Virus record (IMG/VR): IMGVR_UViG_3300007541_000168
Span: 1 to 26,803 of that record
From: a virus
DNA: 26,803 nt
Direction: 5' to 3' (one strand)
The notes beneath the pieces are model-generated. The model saw only the letters and a list, made by a program, of their open reading frames with translations. It was not told the origin of the DNA and searched no databases. Both the position numbers and the translations under genes were made by a program. Below, in pieces: positions 489 to 9,566 of this stretch; within the stretch, counting starts at the first letter, position 1; each line of letters starts with the position of its first letter.

Positions 489-3092
489 CTATCTTAACAA
501 AAGTACAAGATTATCAGACGATCCCTCCTGTGCGCTCCATTCGCTTCCTAAGAAAGAAAGGACTATAGACTTCATATATTCGATATAGTTTTCCATCTTT
601 ATGTTATCCTGGAGCTCGTCATACATTCTAACAACCTTTGGGTTTAGTTCCAAATAGTCAATTAGACACTTTGAAATTGTCTCGAAAAGTCTAGACTTTT
701 CGCCATCACTTAATACGATCTCCTCCTTATTCATGTCCTGAGGGATTTCACCAACCCCCATAGAAATATCCTCTATAACCTTAGGGGATATCTCATTTAT
801 GTTAAGAACACAGTAGGAATTTTTAGGCCCATCTATGGGTTCGTACTCAGAATACTTACCGACATTTAGGTGGAATCCTCTTTCTTTATCATCTTCACCA
901 GCTATGTTAAAAAAGTAGTGATAAACATCAGACTCCTTTTTCATCAAAAATGGCAATGTGCCAAATCCATCAGATTCTAAAATATCTGGTTCTTTTTTAA
1001 TTCCCTCCGAAAAGGATTGGAAATCTTTGATTATTTTTTTCATCTTCTCTATTTGTTTTTTCCTGATTGATTCGGTTTTTTTGTCGGGATCCTCCATCAG
1101 TCCGACCAAATCCTGCATCTGTTCTACTGTTTCGTTCAGAAACTTGTCAGCGAAATAAATGTTATATGTTTCCATCCCGCTTTCTTTTATATCCCCGCCT
1201 CTCATAGCAGGTTCTAAAATATTATAAAGCGATGCAACCTCAGGTGGTGTTTTCTTTTTAAACCCGGAAAAATCAGACCTCAACAGCAAATCCCTTACCT
1301 CGGATGCTGATCCAGATCTAGGAGTTTTAATTATCTCAAAATGTTTTCCTATAAGATCGGAGAGATCCGTGTTCTTCAAGTATTCTTCCTGCTTTGCATA
1401 ATCCGCAAGCCTATCATCTCCACACCCTAAAAGGGACACCTCATATCCCATCTCAGCCAAAGTCGAAAGTATATTTCCAAGATACCCGCTTTTAAATACT
1501 GTATATCCCTCTACCTCCTCATTAGAATTAACAACGGGGTTCATATATTTTTCAATGACACTTCTGGTAAATGGAGATTTTCCGGATTTATTATGACCGG
1601 GGTAAACAACGGCGATATGACAGGGTAAGTCATTTTTGTCTTTTAAAAATTTGGCCATCTTTAAATGCCCCTTATGAAAAGGCTGGAACCTACCTACTAT
1701 CAAATTTACTTTTTTAGAATCTTCCGGTAGATCTTCCTCCACCACCTTATCATTCGCTTGTTCTATTGATTCTAATGTTTCTATAAAATCGTTGAATGAA
1801 TAAAAAGCATCATCTTCCAAATCCTCTTCGGTGACGTAGTCTATTCTTTCAGAAAACGCTGATTTTCTAAATCCAGAAAAAGATGGTATCTCGGACTCCT
1901 TAACAGATTCCTCCTTGTTTTTTTCTATGTAGTTGTTAATATCTTTAACAACCATATTGAATTGCTCAATTATATCGCCAGATATAATACCACTTGGTCT
2001 TTTCCTTATCTTTCTAAAAGAATTTAAGATCAGCTTGAACAATGGCTCGTAGGCATCATCCTCATCTAGCAAAGAAACTACACGGTCGTCATCGATCATA
2101 TCCCTGTTGAGTCTAAACTCCTCCTTTTTTAAGTAGGAGGGCTCTTCAAAATCAGTTCCTTTATACTTGCTACCGTGTTCATCAAGGAATCTAACGAAGA
2201 CATCAGAAATGAAAGATACGTATCTCTTATCCTCTGTGTCACCAACAGCCTCGAATGAATCTATTCCATCTTCCAGGATAAAATTCATAACGTCCAAAAT
2301 TGTAACTCCAAGAAAATCACTCGGCTTTTGCGATGCCCTGGTAGATGCTTTATCCTTAGCCAGTTGTGTGAAGACCGGGTCTACCATTTTGGCCAAAACG
2401 GGTTCTTCCTCCTTACCAGGATCACCAAATCTAAAAACTATTCCCTCTATGGATTTTTCAGTGTCATTATTTAGAGCTGTTTTCTCGAGGTCTGGATTTA
2501 GTACACCAATTATAAAGGAAACAAAACTGTTGGTTTTGTATTTTTCCACCAGTTCTTTAAAAGGGGTGTTCAAAAAACCAAGTATCTCATTCCTTTGTTC
2601 CTCATTTAGTCTTCCCTGAAATATTATCGGGGGTCTTTCAATTCCCAGCAGATCTGCCCAGGAATCAAGTTCTTCCTTATCCTGTATAGTTTCTGTTATC
2701 TTTCCTTGCTGATCCTTTTTATGGACATATGAAAGTATTAGGTTATTCTTTGGAAGATGGTCGTAAGCTATCTCCACAGGCTTAGTGTTTGAAAAATACT
2801 CCATACCAAATCTCCAACCTCTAGGTATTTTCTCTATTATATGAGGGGGCAAGGATTCTATATACTGGATGGGCTTCTCGTAATATTTTGAAATTGTCCG
2901 GTCAACCAGTGTTATGGGTTCGTTTTGGTTTCTTTTGAAAAACTTGAACTTCCCAGTCTCCCGATCCCTTTCAAAATTAAAAGACGATCCATCCATCTTT
3001 TCGTTAACGGTAACAAAAGAATCAAAGAGGCTGTCTATAAACTGCTTCCCCTTCTTATTGTAAACGTCATATAAATGGTTTATACCAGCCAT
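489..3092 (-). CDS. Fused RNA-ligase-type nucleotidyltransferase and NMN-adenylyltransferase-like protein (867 aa)
   Basis: Two catalytic domains are joined. Residues about 20-245 carry the covalent nucleotidyltransferase motifs of ATP-dependent RNA ligases: motif I EKMDGSSF with Lys32 as expected nucleotidyl-lysine, motif III-like RFGMEYF (94-100), motif IV IEGIVFRF (215-222) and motif V LAKMVD with Lys235. Residues about 462-630 are a cytidylyltransferase-fold adenylyltransferase of NadM type: GRFQPFHKGH (467-476) with the HxGH signature, and SGSASEVRDLL (593-603) matching the C-terminal phosphate-binding motif. The linker (250-460) is acidic and contains SFNDFIETLE (432-441), resembling the start of two neighbouring proteins. 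Residues 640-867 form a third domain I do not recognise. The ATG at 3092 lies 6 bp after the upstream stop. The likely roles are RNA or DNA end sealing plus NAD+ or related dinucleotide synthesis. Substrates are inferred from motifs only. Confidence 0.85.
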   Translation of the reverse strand: MAGINHLYDVYNKKGKQFIDSLFDSFVTVNEKMDGSSFNFERDRETGKFKFFKRNQNEPITLVDRTISKYYEKPIQYIESLPPHIIEKIPRGWRFGMEYFSNTKPVEIAYDHLPKNNLILSYVHKKDQQGKITETIQDKEELDSWADLLGIERPPIIFQGRLNEEQRNEILGFLNTPFKELVEKYKTNSFVSFIIGVLNPDLEKTALNNDTEKSIEGIVFRFGDPGKEEEPVLAKMVDPVFTQLAKDKASTRASQKPSDFLGVTILDVMNFILEDGIDSFEAVGDTEDKRYVSFISDVFVRFLDEHGSKYKGTDFEEPSYLKKEEFRLNRDMIDDDRVVSLLDEDDAYEPLFKLILNSFRKIRKRPSGIISGDIIEQFNMVVKDINNYIEKNKEESVKESEIPSFSGFRKSAFSERIDYVTEEDLEDDAFYSFNDFIETLESIEQANDKVVEEDLPEDSKKVNLIVGRFQPFHKGHLKMAKFLKDKNDLPCHIAVVYPGHNKSGKSPFTRSVIEKYMNPVVNSNEEVEGYTVFKSGYLGNILSTLAEMGYEVSLLGCGDDRLADYAKQEEYLKNTDLSDLIGKHFEIIKTPRSGSASEVRDLLLRSDFSGFKKKTPPEVASLYNILEPAMRGGDIKESGMETYNIYFADKFLNETVEQMQDLVGLMEDPDKKTESIRKKQIEKMKKIIKDFQSFSEGIKKEPDILESDGFGTLPFLMKKESDVYHYFFNIAGEDDKERGFHLNVGKYSEYEPIDGPKNSYCVLNINEISPKVIEDISMGVGEIPQDMNKEEIVLSDGEKSRLFETISKCLIDYLELNPKVVRMYDELQDNIKMENYIEYMKSIVLSFLGSEWSAQEGSSDNLVLLLR

Positions 3093-3098
3093 TGCTTA

Positions 3099-4028
3099 TT
3101 ATGATTTCTTTATTTCTTTAGGTATTTCTAGACCAGCTCTCTGAATAAATTCCACATACTTTTCCTTTATTTCGGGCAATTTACCATATAGATCAAATCC
3201 CGGGTCATTGATTATAGAAAAAACATCCTCGAAAGTTTTTACCGAGTCAGTCGGGTATTTTTTGCCCAGGGTGAGCTCGATGAATTTTTCCGGGTTATTG
3301 GTTACAAATGTCTCAGTTCCGGGTATTTTGGAGGCCTTTGATAGTCTGCTCTTAGTTTTACCTCTAAATGACTTTGTGTATTTATATAAGCCATCGCTAA
3401 GAACCAAAACAGGGGTTTCATAGTCCAAAATCTCTCCGTTCTCATCGAATGTTTTTGGTTCTTTCCTTGCGTCTAAAATTGCAGAGAATAGCCAATTTCT
3501 ATGTGCTGATTTGTATTTGCTTTCCCTTTTTCTGTAATCTGGTGAATAATAGATGAAGTCTGCCCATTCCATATCGGAAATTGGAATAAGATCTAGCTGA
3601 ACAACACCATTTGAAAAGTTACCCCCTATTGGCCACCCAATACTTACTATGTTTAAACCCTTTAGGAAATTAACATCAGGGGTCTCTTCCAACCCAAAAG
3701 GGATTTCTGAGATAACTCTCTGATTTAGAGCTGCTGATATCTCCTTTATGTTGTTTTGAGTTCCCAGTGACTTGGAAAGTGATTTTGCAGATATGCCCAG
3801 ATCTATATCTCCAGAAGTGTCACTTGGGTCCTCCTTTTTTCCTATGCTTCCTATTAATACAGTATCATCTTTTTTAATACCCAATGCGGGTATTAAATTA
3901 TTGTATATAAACTCTAGGGTGAGTGGAACCTCATCTTCCCTTATTCGTCGCGATTTCTTTATAGCCGCACCGCCTTCGAAAAGCCGAACAAAATCAGAAA
4001 ATCCCGATATGTGAGTCATCGATACCAT
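3099..4028 (-). CDS. Pol beta-superfamily nucleotidyltransferase (309 aa)
   Basis: The sequence LIGSIGKK (58-65) followed by SGDIDLGI (72-79) is the GS...DxD signature of the Pol beta nucleotidyltransferase fold, giving metal ligands Asp74 and Asp76. VQLDLIP (143-149) supplies the third carboxylate, Asp146. The family transfers NMPs to RNA ends, proteins or small molecules (CCA-adding enzymes, poly(A) polymerases, MNT-type toxins). Which applies here cannot be read from sequence. The N-terminus MTHISGFSDFVRLFEGG resembles a T4 capsid-targeting peptide, with LFE followed by G as a plausible prohead-protease site. Start choice is open between residue 1 and Met4. The gene is 1 bp downstream of the 161-aa gene and 6 bp upstream of the ligase/NMNAT fusion, so the three are probably co-transcribed and may form an RNA-processing set. 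Confidence 0.75.
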   Translation of the reverse strand: MVSMTHISGFSDFVRLFEGGAAIKKSRRIREDEVPLTLEFIYNNLIPALGIKKDDTVLIGSIGKKEDPSDTSGDIDLGISAKSLSKSLGTQNNIKEISAALNQRVISEIPFGLEETPDVNFLKGLNIVSIGWPIGGNFSNGVVQLDLIPISDMEWADFIYYSPDYRKRESKYKSAHRNWLFSAILDARKEPKTFDENGEILDYETPVLVLSDGLYKYTKSFRGKTKSRLSKASKIPGTETFVTNNPEKFIELTLGKKYPTDSVKTFEDVFSIINDPGFDLYGKLPEIKEKYVEFIQRAGLEIPKEIKKS

Positions 4029-4029
4029 T

Positions 4030-4515
4030 TTATATTCTAGACTTATATCTATTTAATATGCCAGTAGCATAATCAGACCAAATCTGTTGCTCCTCGTTTT
4101 GTGGATCGAAAATATTAAATGATTGACCAAATCTAGCCTTACCAGACTTTTCTAGACTATCATAGAATGCTGCAAAATCCTTTTCGGTGTAATTTGGTTT
4201 ACTAAGATATTGTCTTTCCCACATGTCGAGATACTTAGCCCTATCCCTCCTTAAAGAGACTATGTCCGCATCATCCGGAATGTAGTCCATATTTAAATCC
4301 TTCTTAATAGGATTTGCAAACCTGGCTATTTTTTCTATCGCACGACCAAAGGTTCTCATTATTGCAGCCTTTTCAGCTGACTGAGAAGCTGATCCGTAGC
4401 TCTTTATAGTATTTCCATAATCCTCCAGGCTAGAAAGTATCCTACTCACTCCCGGGGTTTTCTCCTTCCTTTCAGCCTCAAAAATGTAATCTGTAAAGTT
4501 CATTAAATTTTCCAT
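4030..4515 (-). CDS. Unknown helical protein with capsid-targeting-like N-terminus (161 aa)
   Basis: I do not recognise the family. The protein is charged and mostly helical in appearance, without membrane segments or Cys clusters. It may start at Met1 or Met5; from Met5 it begins MNFTDYIFEAERK, very close in pattern to the T4 internal-protein leader MKTYQEFIAEA, with IFE followed by A matching the (I/L)xE rule of T4 gp21 protease. That suggests an internal head protein or packaged effector, an inference from one short motif. The C-terminal half holds a Tyr/Phe/Asp-rich stretch and ends YKSRI. The gene is first of the three-gene set reading towards the nucleotidyltransferase (1-bp gap) and begins 40 bp after the UvsW stop. 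Confidence 0.65.
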   Translation of the reverse strand: MENLMNFTDYIFEAERKEKTPGVSRILSSLEDYGNTIKSYGSASQSAEKAAIMRTFGRAIEKIARFANPIKKDLNMDYIPDDADIVSLRRDRAKYLDMWERQYLSKPNYTEKDFAAFYDSLEKSGKARFGQSFNIFDPQNEEQQIWSDYATGILNRYKSRI

Positions 4516-4555: not shown

Positions 4556-6079
4556 TTATAGTTTAACCTTGAATATCTTATACTCAAAATTTTCCTTCTT
4601 GTATATCTCTATCCTAGATCTGCTATGCTTCATTAGATAATTCTCGTACCTTGGAGTCGTAAAATCGTCAACAAAGTCTATTATATTCACCCGCTCCTTA
4701 CCCTCCATTTTTCTCATACCACGACCAAGACTTTGTTTTATCAGAACCTCGCTTTTATAAGATTCCACCAAAAATATGTTATGAAGATTATTTATAGATA
4801 TACCGGTGGAGAACGTACCATATGTGGCTATTAGAACCTTATTAGAACCCTTAGCCATTCTTGATTTATATTCTTCCCTTAGATTTTCGTCTGTGTCTCC
4901 ATCAACGTAAAATGCCTCCTTGTCTCGTGTTTTCTCCCTCAGGAGATTCCATATTTGCTTTCCATACTCGTCCTTCACAGATTGAAAAAGGACCAGGGAA
5001 TTTTTTGATGTCTTTGATATGAAGTCAACGACATAATTAAGTCTCTTCTTGCTTTCTATAACGAGCTTTCTTTCCAGATTATAAACTTCATTGCCCTCCA
5101 CATTATTGGAATTAAGTTTTAAATCGGCTAGTTTTTCTTTGTAATCCTGGTCTAGCCAGTCCATCACAACAATCTTTATAGAAACTGGAGTGGCGTGATT
5201 TTGATCAAAGAGGAATTTTGGTGATATTTCTACCACGACAGGTCCCAAAAATTGTTGTACTGTCAGGTGGTCTGCGGTTCCTCTTTTTGTTAAGGTCCCG
5301 GTAAGGCCAAACCTCCAAGACGATGTCATGCACTTAGAAACTATCTTTTTGATCGACATGGAGTTGGTGTGATGAGCTTCATCAACAAAAACTGCATCAA
5401 TCCCATCAAAAAATTCTTGATCCTTTTTGACCAGAGATTGGAAAGTCCCTATTATAACATCACAATTTTCCCTCATCTTGCTGCCTCCTCCGATCTGCTG
5501 TATTCGCGATCCGAGTTTTTCTATCCCATAGTCGATAAAATCGTCGCTTCCCTGGAAAACTAGATTAGTACTAGGAACGATCATAAGAAATTTTCGAATC
5601 AAACCCTTGTCTTTTAAATAAGCAAATATCATAAACGATATTAGGGTTTTTCCTGAAGATGTAGCTATCTCTGATACAGTATATCTATATTTTATAATCT
5701 TCCATGCTGCTTCTATTTGGTAGTCTCTGGGTTTGATTTCACTGTCAGCAAAGAAACCGTCCGCCCACTCCTGGAAATCTTCCAGAGTAAGGTCCGCTAA
5801 AAATATCTTTTCTAGTCCCAGTATCTCTATTTCAATATCATATTCATCACCGATCTGATAGATCTCTCTCCATAACCCGATTGGAATTCTCCAGAAAGAA
5901 CCCTTTTTCTCAACAAAGCATATGTTTCCGTCCCATATTTTTTTCTTTACGAGCGGGTGGAAATACCAGTTGTGGATTTTTTTGGTCAAAGAGAGCTCAA
6001 TCTGCCTCTTCTCAATCTCGTCGGGAGAGTGGGTTAGCAAAAGCCATTGTCTATCTTCAGAAACTTGAAATCTTAGCAT
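4556..6079 (-). CDS. uvsW: UvsW-like DNA/RNA helicase
   Basis: A superfamily 2 ATPase of 507 residues, almost the length of T4 UvsW (503). Motif Ia-region RDYQ (118-121) precedes Walker A ATSSGKT (139-145, Lys144). Then come the DEAH box VFVDEAHH (230-237), motif III GLTGTL (258-263), motif V GTFSTGISI (421-429) and motif VI QSLGRGMRK (449-457). The N-terminal 100 residues, with the basic IHNWYFHPLVKKKIWDG region, match the DNA-binding domain position of UvsW. In T4 this helicase unwinds R-loops and branched recombination intermediates and drives the switch from origin-dependent to recombination-dependent replication. It follows the UvsY-like gene by 2 bp, with AAATAAGG directly before the ATG, an adjacency also found in T4, which supports both calls. 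A 40-bp gap with no clear terminator separates its stop from the next gene. Confidence 0.92.
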   Translation of the reverse strand: MLRFQVSEDRQWLLLTHSPDEIEKRQIELSLTKKIHNWYFHPLVKKKIWDGNICFVEKKGSFWRIPIGLWREIYQIGDEYDIEIEILGLEKIFLADLTLEDFQEWADGFFADSEIKPRDYQIEAAWKIIKYRYTVSEIATSSGKTLISFMIFAYLKDKGLIRKFLMIVPSTNLVFQGSDDFIDYGIEKLGSRIQQIGGGSKMRENCDVIIGTFQSLVKKDQEFFDGIDAVFVDEAHHTNSMSIKKIVSKCMTSSWRFGLTGTLTKRGTADHLTVQQFLGPVVVEISPKFLFDQNHATPVSIKIVVMDWLDQDYKEKLADLKLNSNNVEGNEVYNLERKLVIESKKRLNYVVDFISKTSKNSLVLFQSVKDEYGKQIWNLLREKTRDKEAFYVDGDTDENLREEYKSRMAKGSNKVLIATYGTFSTGISINNLHNIFLVESYKSEVLIKQSLGRGMRKMEGKERVNIIDFVDDFTTPRYENYLMKHSRSRIEIYKKENFEYKIFKVKL

Positions 6080-8963: not shown

Positions 8964-9566
8964 TCATTGGTCTGCTACCGGAAGGGTCCTTTTCTCAATG
9001 ATATCGATCAGAGAGTGTATTATTTTTATGTGCATCTCCTGTATCCTATCAGCAAACTTTGATTCTGGTGTTCTAACAATAACACCAGGGAAGATCATAT
9101 TAGATATCTCTCCCCCATTATTTCCGGTTAGAATAACACACTTTATCCCATTTTCCGATGCGTACTTTATTGCTTCTATAACATTTTTAGAATTACCACT
9201 GGTGCTTATGCCCAGAAATACGTCCCCAGGATTTCCCAGTGCTTCTAGATATCTAGAGAATATCTTATCATAACCAAAGTCATTGGCTACGCAAGTTATA
9301 TGAGATGGATCTGAAATAGAAACAGCAGGTAAACCTCTTCTGTTGAGTCTCCACCTACCGGAAAGCTCCTCCGCAAAATGCATAGCATCACACATCGAGC
9401 CTCCGTTTCCCCCCGACATTATCTTATTTCCGCCGCTAACACATTCAACAAGTATATCTGCAGCCTCTGAAACAAGATTAAGATATTCAGGATTACTCAG
9501 AAAAGAGTTCAGGAATTCCCTGGCTTCCGAGTAATGTCCAATTAATATATTTCTATTTTCCTCCAT
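8964..9566 (-). CDS. gmhA: Phosphoheptose isomerase (sedoheptulose-7-phosphate isomerase)
   Basis: A full-length SIS-fold enzyme of 200 residues (E. coli GmhA has 192). The first sugar-phosphate motif SGGNGGSMCDAMHFAEELSG (51-70) includes the catalytic Glu66. SISDPSHITCVANDFGYD (83-100) and GISTSGNS (119-126) are diagnostic, and DRIQEMHIKIIH (173-184) carries the second catalytic residue, His179. It converts sedoheptulose 7-phosphate to D-glycero-D-manno-heptose 7-phosphate, the first step to ADP- or GDP-heptose for LPS core, capsule or S-layer glycans. Other heptose-pathway genes (hldE/hddA, gmhB) are absent here, so it would draw on host enzymes or genes elsewhere in the phage. The start overlaps the end of the RuvC-like gene by 14 bp. 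Possible benefits are surface remodelling against superinfection or glycosylation of phage DNA or virions. Confidence 0.95.
   Translation of the reverse strand: MEENRNILIGHYSEAREFLNSFLSNPEYLNLVSEAADILVECVSGGNKIMSGGNGGSMCDAMHFAEELSGRWRLNRRGLPAVSISDPSHITCVANDFGYDKIFSRYLEALGNPGDVFLGISTSGNSKNVIEAIKYASENGIKCVILTGNNGGEISNMIFPGVIVRTPESKFADRIQEMHIKIIHSLIDIIEKRTLPVADQ

Follow-up and report, generated by a model that had tools for sequence, protein, structure and literature searches.

A conserved fusion of RNA-ligase-type and NMNAT-like domains in large T4-like phages may be a precursor packaged in the phage head

T4 RNA ligase 2 (RnlB, gp24.1) is a single enzyme whose gene lies about 3 kb from uvsW. 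Phage adenylyltransferases of the NadM/NadR type (with NadV) are proposed to restore NAD+ (PMC9503650). In phages, the known forms have a Nudix or kinase domain as fusion partner, not a ligase. In cyanophages, a DUF6267 protein with the motifs KWDG...EGFV...KLVD lies directly upstream of, or is joined with, a HIGH nucleotidyltransferase (T4-GC71/T4-GC190; phrog_455). Virions of S-SM1 were found to contain the citidylyltransferase T4-GC190 (PMC3037559). A cytidylyltransferase is also present in those of S-CREM2; the authors suggest that it is injected while warning of possible contaminants (PMC10665884). The internal head proteins of T4, and T4 Alt, carry FxxF and [hydrophobic]xE↓ signals, where the arrow marks the cut; in the T4 leader, packaging and targeting depend on residues 4 and 7, and processing on residues 8 and 10 (PMC9026906). 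Phage counter-defence is usually studied for genes that are expressed after entry.

We analysed a virus record of 26.8 kb (26,803 nucleotides; the window), a fragment with T4-type genes for gp32, primase and UvsY-like, UvsW-like and RuvC-like proteins, which share their strand with the gene described here. This gene, encoding P0001, is a single open frame of 867 codons that runs from an ATG at 3092 to a stop at 489 (Table 1). The original prediction had placed it correctly at 489-3092, omitting the minus strand, and had read it as a fusion of a ligase-type and an NMNAT-type domain from six motifs (EKMDG, FGMEYF, EGIVF, LAKMVD, GRFQPFHKGH and SGSASEVR), all of which are present. An AlphaFold2 model made with 40 relatives (pLDDT 82.5 over residues 1-640) and the structural matches found with it agree with both domain types.

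Table 1. Features of the fusion gene and its upstream neighbours in the window
Feature	Position	Strand	Basis
867-residue fusion protein P0001 (ligase-like, linker, NMNAT-like, domain 3)	489..3092	-	single open frame; homologues
Rnl2-like covalent nucleotidyltransferase with helical C-terminal part, residues 1-390	1923..3092	-	Pfam RNA_ligase; Foldseek T4 RNA ligase 2
Motif I EKMDG with putative AMP-accepting lysine, residues 31-35	2988..3002	-	sequence, family comparison
Motif III FGMEYF, residues 95-100	2793..2810	-	sequence, family comparison
Motif IV EGIVF, residues 216-220	2433..2447	-	sequence, family comparison
Motif V LAKMVD, residues 233-238	2379..2396	-	sequence, family comparison
Linker, residues 391-458, predicted disordered	1719..1922	-	pLDDT <50 at 395-404 and 406-454
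Candidate prohead-protease site VKE↓S, residues 397-400	1893..1904	-	family conservation
Capsid-targeting-like SFSGF, residues 404-408	1869..1883	-	family conservation
Second capsid-targeting-like stretch YSFNDFIETLE, residues 431-441	1770..1802	-	likeness to T4 IPIII MKTYQEFIAE; near relatives
HIGH-superfamily (NMN/NaMN adenylyltransferase-like) domain, residues 462-632	1197..1709	-	Pfam, NCBIfam; VIA-align
GRFQPFHKGH, residues 467-476	1665..1694	-	sequence
SGSASEVR, residues 593-600	1293..1316	-	sequence, family comparison
Domain 3 with its own possible ATG (residue 684), leader MKKIIKDFQSFSEGIKKEPDILE↓SDGFG	492..1043	-	separate gene in relatives
Upstream Pol-beta-like nucleotidyltransferase, GSIGKK...SGDIDLGI	3099..4028	-	homologues, motif pattern
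Pol-beta-like leader MVSMTHISGFSDFVRLFE, ending where leaderless homologues begin (M-GG)	3975..4028	-	homologue comparison
161-aa protein with leader MENLMNFTDYIFE↓AE	4030..4515	-	leader pattern
UvsW-like helicase, conserved upstream neighbour	4556..6079	-	profile match, relatives' loci

We scanned IMG/VR once with the single sequence and once with an alignment. These scans yielded 345 relatives, from which 63 distinct proteins were examined (alignment counts below are over 64 rows). The ligase-NMNAT join is nearly constant among the 63, and two huge-phage proteins keep the ligase half alone. Because the same two-domain protein recurs in many contigs, the fusion is not a chance event. We found it in large T4-like phages only, with contigs of up to 482 kb; one relative is a 462-kb metagenomic phage, and Bacteroidota are suggested as hosts. 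BFVD holds a 623-residue uncultured phage protein that matches the fusion end to end at 33% identity. A cellular origin was also considered and rejected: the single match in the genome collection is a 254-kb contig binned as Bacteroidetes but phage-looking. We found no paper in the open literature that names an RNA ligase-NMNAT fusion. The join between the two domains is thus real, conserved and apparently unreported, while the component enzyme types are known.

The third part of the protein behaves differently. Originally described as an unrecognised domain of the same protein, it comprises residues ~684-867, and in every relative where we found these ~180 C-terminal residues they form a separate gene, usually directly downstream and often immediately adjacent; they share one frame with the fusion in this window only. 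The separate genes mostly begin with short FxxF...NE↓[S/A/N]DGFG leaders. The window keeps both an ATG at 1043 and the corresponding DILE↓SDGFG pattern, and the stop between the genes is missing. The triple fusion is taken here to be local to the window and possibly an artefact. We regard it as evenly balanced whether the join comes from an error in sequencing or from a stop lost very recently, and is not a functional triple enzyme. The two genes lie in the same or an overlapping frame in relatives, in one of which (L021) a single stop and a few codons divide them, and no second contig carrying the window's domain-3 junction was found. On the other side, nothing interrupts the window's frame anywhere between the two genes, and a simple base-call error would need this openness to have arisen by chance. 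Domain 3 is modelled with confidence (pLDDT 86.8), and its structural matches are middling (GNAT-like proteins and parts of RNase E, Z at most 6.9). It had no convincing sequence match in the PDB and no match among phage records.

The N-terminal half resembles T4 RNA ligase 2 in its nucleotidyltransferase fold and motifs. Pfam RNA_ligase, the only ligase model matched in the Pfam search, covers residues 27-222 (30.5 bits against a cut-off of 27). Motifs I, III, IV and V are intact, and the best PDB match of the model in Foldseek is T4 RNA ligase 2 (2hvr_A, E 3.4e-8, 370 columns; 1s68, E 5.6e-6), although sequence identity to the T4 enzyme is about 15%. As in T4, the gene lies near uvsW. Unlike the T4 enzyme, this half is joined to an NMNAT-type domain through a linker with a protease-like site. 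On the model, the N-terminal half is a T4-Rnl2-like covalent nucleotidyltransferase of RNA-ligase type, predicted to join RNA; its sequence alone is compatible with RNA or DNA ends as the substrate.

We compared the ligase half with the cyanophage DUF6267 proteins. With hhalign, only the KxDG stretch aligned (E 0.09), so we claim a likeness in gene arrangement, that is an analogy, and not homology. In cyanophages the two partner types are unfused neighbours, and in one family (phrog_455) they are joined. The cyanophage nucleotidyltransferase, a homologue of the NMNAT-like half, differs from it in an extra C-terminal region and in TxGH. It shares the packaging pattern described below: the T4-GC190 protein begins with a capsid-targeting-like leader, MKKFSAFLNE↓AE, and similar starts occur in several cyanophages. 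Separately, in Pfam DUF6267 (L144:2375-3271 and homologues) KxDG and EGxV are invariant and K-[LF]-[VI]-[DN]-R is nearly so, a pattern that suggests that DUF6267 is itself a covalent nucleotidyltransferase.

The second domain matches Pfam CTP_transf_like at residues 464-499 (23.3 bits, cut-off 21) and NCBIfam cyt_tran_rel (29.6 bits, cut-off 27.7). In Foldseek, the PDB matches after T4 RNA ligase 2 are NadD, PPAT and NadM enzymes. VIA-align Z values are a near tie between NadD (5vir_A, 15.5), PPAT (14.8) and archaeal NMNAT NadM (1f9a, 14.4), and are therefore too close to support a choice of substrate; by sequence, NMN, NaMN and phosphopantetheine would all fit. The (H/T)xGH and S...xVR motifs are present, and the form GRFQPFHxGH is common to P0001 and phage NadM/NadR, which differ in lacking a ligase partner. 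P0001 falls below the cut-off of the NadM equivalog TIGR01527 (20.7 against 181.2 bits), and we therefore class the domain as NMNAT-like and not as NadM. NadV-type genes occur in 5 of 11 relatives' records, which makes a supply of NMN plausible in some relatives.

The linker is variable except at a few positions. Among its roughly 70 positions, E399, F405 and F408 stand out as strongly conserved: E399 is kept in 60 of 64 rows, F405 in all 64, and F or Y at 408 likewise in 64 of 64. Residue 397 is V, I or L in 59/64, and residue 400 is S, G, N or A in 61/64. The site thus has the form recognised by T4-type (gp21-type) prohead proteases, [V/I/L]xE↓[S/G/N/A], followed by FxxF, and VKE↓S is a family-conserved candidate for cleavage. 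Further along the linker, FYSFNDFIETLE in the window and a SYQEFI-type stretch in relatives resemble the leader of T4 IPII and IPIII, which begin MKTYQEFIAE. P0001 has no N-terminal capsid-targeting leader: it starts MAGINHLYDVYNKKGKQF, without FxxF...E, and its motifs are internal, between two enzymes. We therefore do not class it as a T4 internal head protein. To our knowledge, internal targeting has no established mechanism or precedent in T4.

Could the linker motif serve as a conserved point of contact, or as a sorting tag of another kind, and not as a protease and targeting signal? In P0001 the order is cut site and then FxxF, the reverse of T4 leaders, and E399 is replaced in 4 of the 64 rows; both points would suit another kind of tag. 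However, the same site form recurs in the major capsid protein, the leader of the Pol-beta-like protein and the leader of the separate domain-3 gene of these same phages, and we consider this alternative unlikely. The capsid protein of relatives has HSLNE↓SAGAY near its N-terminus, which by analogy with T4 would be its processing site, and linkers show the same form as VNE↓S.

Of 11 large relatives' records, 10 encode a maturation protease of T4 type (PF03420) and the gp23 capsid protein. We also counted capsid-targeting-like N-termini. In a 348-kb relative, such starts occur in 47 of 402 ORFs, where shuffling gives 6.6 +/- 2.3; beside the fusion they occur in 43 of 192 ORFs (shuffled, 3.4 +/- 1.8). 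The Atu_ph07 and Lak phage controls show no excess over chance. The fusion's neighbours in the window carry proper N-terminal leaders of this kind (Table 1). The leaders of Pol-beta-like proteins end in [F/N]E↓GG exactly where leaderless homologues start with M-GG, so a cut there would restore the ancestral N-terminus. These patterns are good sequence evidence for counting the fusion among the proteins that large T4-like phages package. The leader pattern offers a simple sequence test for this set, and the 348-kb genome alone would hold about 47 packaged-protein candidates, most without an assigned function here. We found no virion proteomics of a fusion-carrying phage in the literature. In Atu_ph07, 29 virion proteins were found within the CDS 31-76 region (PMC6102473); its Pol-beta-like and ligase-like genes, gp65 and gp66 by our count, fall within that region.

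We lean, by a small measure, towards P0001 being a head-packaged precursor of two injected repair enzymes that the prohead protease cuts apart, with the fusion serving co-packaging and not coupled catalysis. The precursor would enter the prohead through its capsid-targeting motifs, and a gp21-type protease would cut it in the linker, at the conserved VKE↓S. Both enzymes, now separate, would then enter the host with the DNA, usable at once. There, the ligase half may reseal cleaved tRNA or other RNA, and the NMNAT half may rebuild NAD+ depleted by host defences. Fusion would ensure that both are packaged in equal amounts. As an account of the fusion, joint packaging into the head is more convincing than shared chemistry. 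More tentatively, and with confidence just short of even, we suggest that a single precursor packed in the capsid and cut by the maturation protease is a head-matured enzyme polyprotein, giving each infection a balanced, pre-made dose of two counter-defence activities. If so, RNA-repair and NAD+-repair enzymes would be preloaded in time for the first attack by anticodon nucleases and NADases, and joining them in one precursor around an internal maturation site would be a means of packing the two equally.

If the packaged protein instead served as a virion or core component, its ligase and NMNAT folds could act as binders, with catalysis incidental. Both halves are under strong purifying selection (dN/dS about 0.01-0.09 for pairs with measurable dS). 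The catalytic ligase lysine is absent in 13 of 64 rows, with about five losses in distant lineages; parsimony needs five changes, at least four of them forced by well-supported branches. Given these losses, catalysis is not the feature kept across the entire family, yet both domains remain under purifying selection in the lineages concerned (dN/dS 0.05-0.09 for the ligase domain). L049/L050 and L057/L059 lack HxGH, and in several lineages the catalytic residues have gone from one domain without the other. The original prediction had counted on both motifs persisting in close relatives. This holds for relatives about 55-62% identical, which keep HxGH and EKMDG (EKIDG in L044/L045), but HxGH is gone from one relative at 48% identity and the lysine from several distant lineages. 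Nevertheless, both active sites are intact in the window protein and its closest relatives and are kept by most lineages, and a structural or binding role seems improbable to us.

Similarly low in probability is a packaged set for repairing DNA ends, in which the ligase-like and Pol-beta-like proteins would act on injected phage DNA and not on RNA. The Pol-beta-like gene is conserved in 24 relatives' loci, and in Menderavirus and X1 a gene of possible nuclease type (judged by eye only) lies between it and the ligase-like gene. Against this, the closest fold is an RNA ligase, RNA_ligase is the sole Pfam ligase model matched, and the NMNAT partner would be left unexplained. The Pol-beta-like protein had no Pfam or PHROG match when checked as a possible RlaP (RNA-ligase-associated Pol-beta), with the GS...DxD pattern only, and a profile search against the PDB gave nothing useful. 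Its homologues occur in Lak megaphages, Atu_ph07 and Phosso. In Sinorhizobium phage Phosso and Agrobacterium phage Atu_ph07 it adjoins the ligase-like gene, and in Stenotrophomonas and Xanthomonas phages the Pol-beta-like, ligase-like and NMNAT genes stand side by side, unfused.

Least probable of all is catalytic coupling, with an uncut protein whose NMNAT half supplies its ligase half (for example by remaking NAD+ from NMN that a ligase using NAD+ releases) or whose two halves work together on NAD-capped or cleaved RNA. In its favour, the fusion is stable over much divergence and the partner types recur as neighbours elsewhere and joined in phrog_455. Against it, the linker is predicted to be disordered, which leaves a rigid two-domain enzyme unsupported, and carries a conserved protease-like site; several lineages have lost residues from a single domain; the partners are unfused in other phages; and neither Pfam nor NCBIfam recognised an NAD-binding Ia-type domain in P0001. 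The coupling suggested in the original prediction is thus unsupported, whereas its two enzyme types, their fusion and a link to RNA repair together with NAD+ restoration fit the T4 Rnl2 and NadD/NadM folds, the Pol-beta-type neighbour and the NadV-type genes.

Several further features of these loci were observed. In the window, a SIS-domain protein (8964-9566, minus strand) lies between the RuvC-like gene and gp32. In LR756500 (L011:4704-5969), a second EKLDG-containing protein with the leader MKFLKSYEEFLNE↓N is encoded directly upstream of the fusion. Near its ligase-like and Pol-beta-like genes, Atu_ph07 has a row of ~250-residue paralogues (L016:9579-16804), and those read have YRG motifs resembling ADP-ribosyltransferases. 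In L133-L141, the open frame that contains the gp21-type protease domain is unusually long, at roughly 610-720 codons. The 348-kb relative, G002, has a dense cluster of proteins with such capsid-targeting-like leaders at 100-120 kb (L120), several of them paralogues with EQIxWLDKC near the N-terminus. The same genome encodes a tmRNA (L125:185-650, minus strand; Rfam RF00023, 62.6 bits) with the tag EVEYAYAA.
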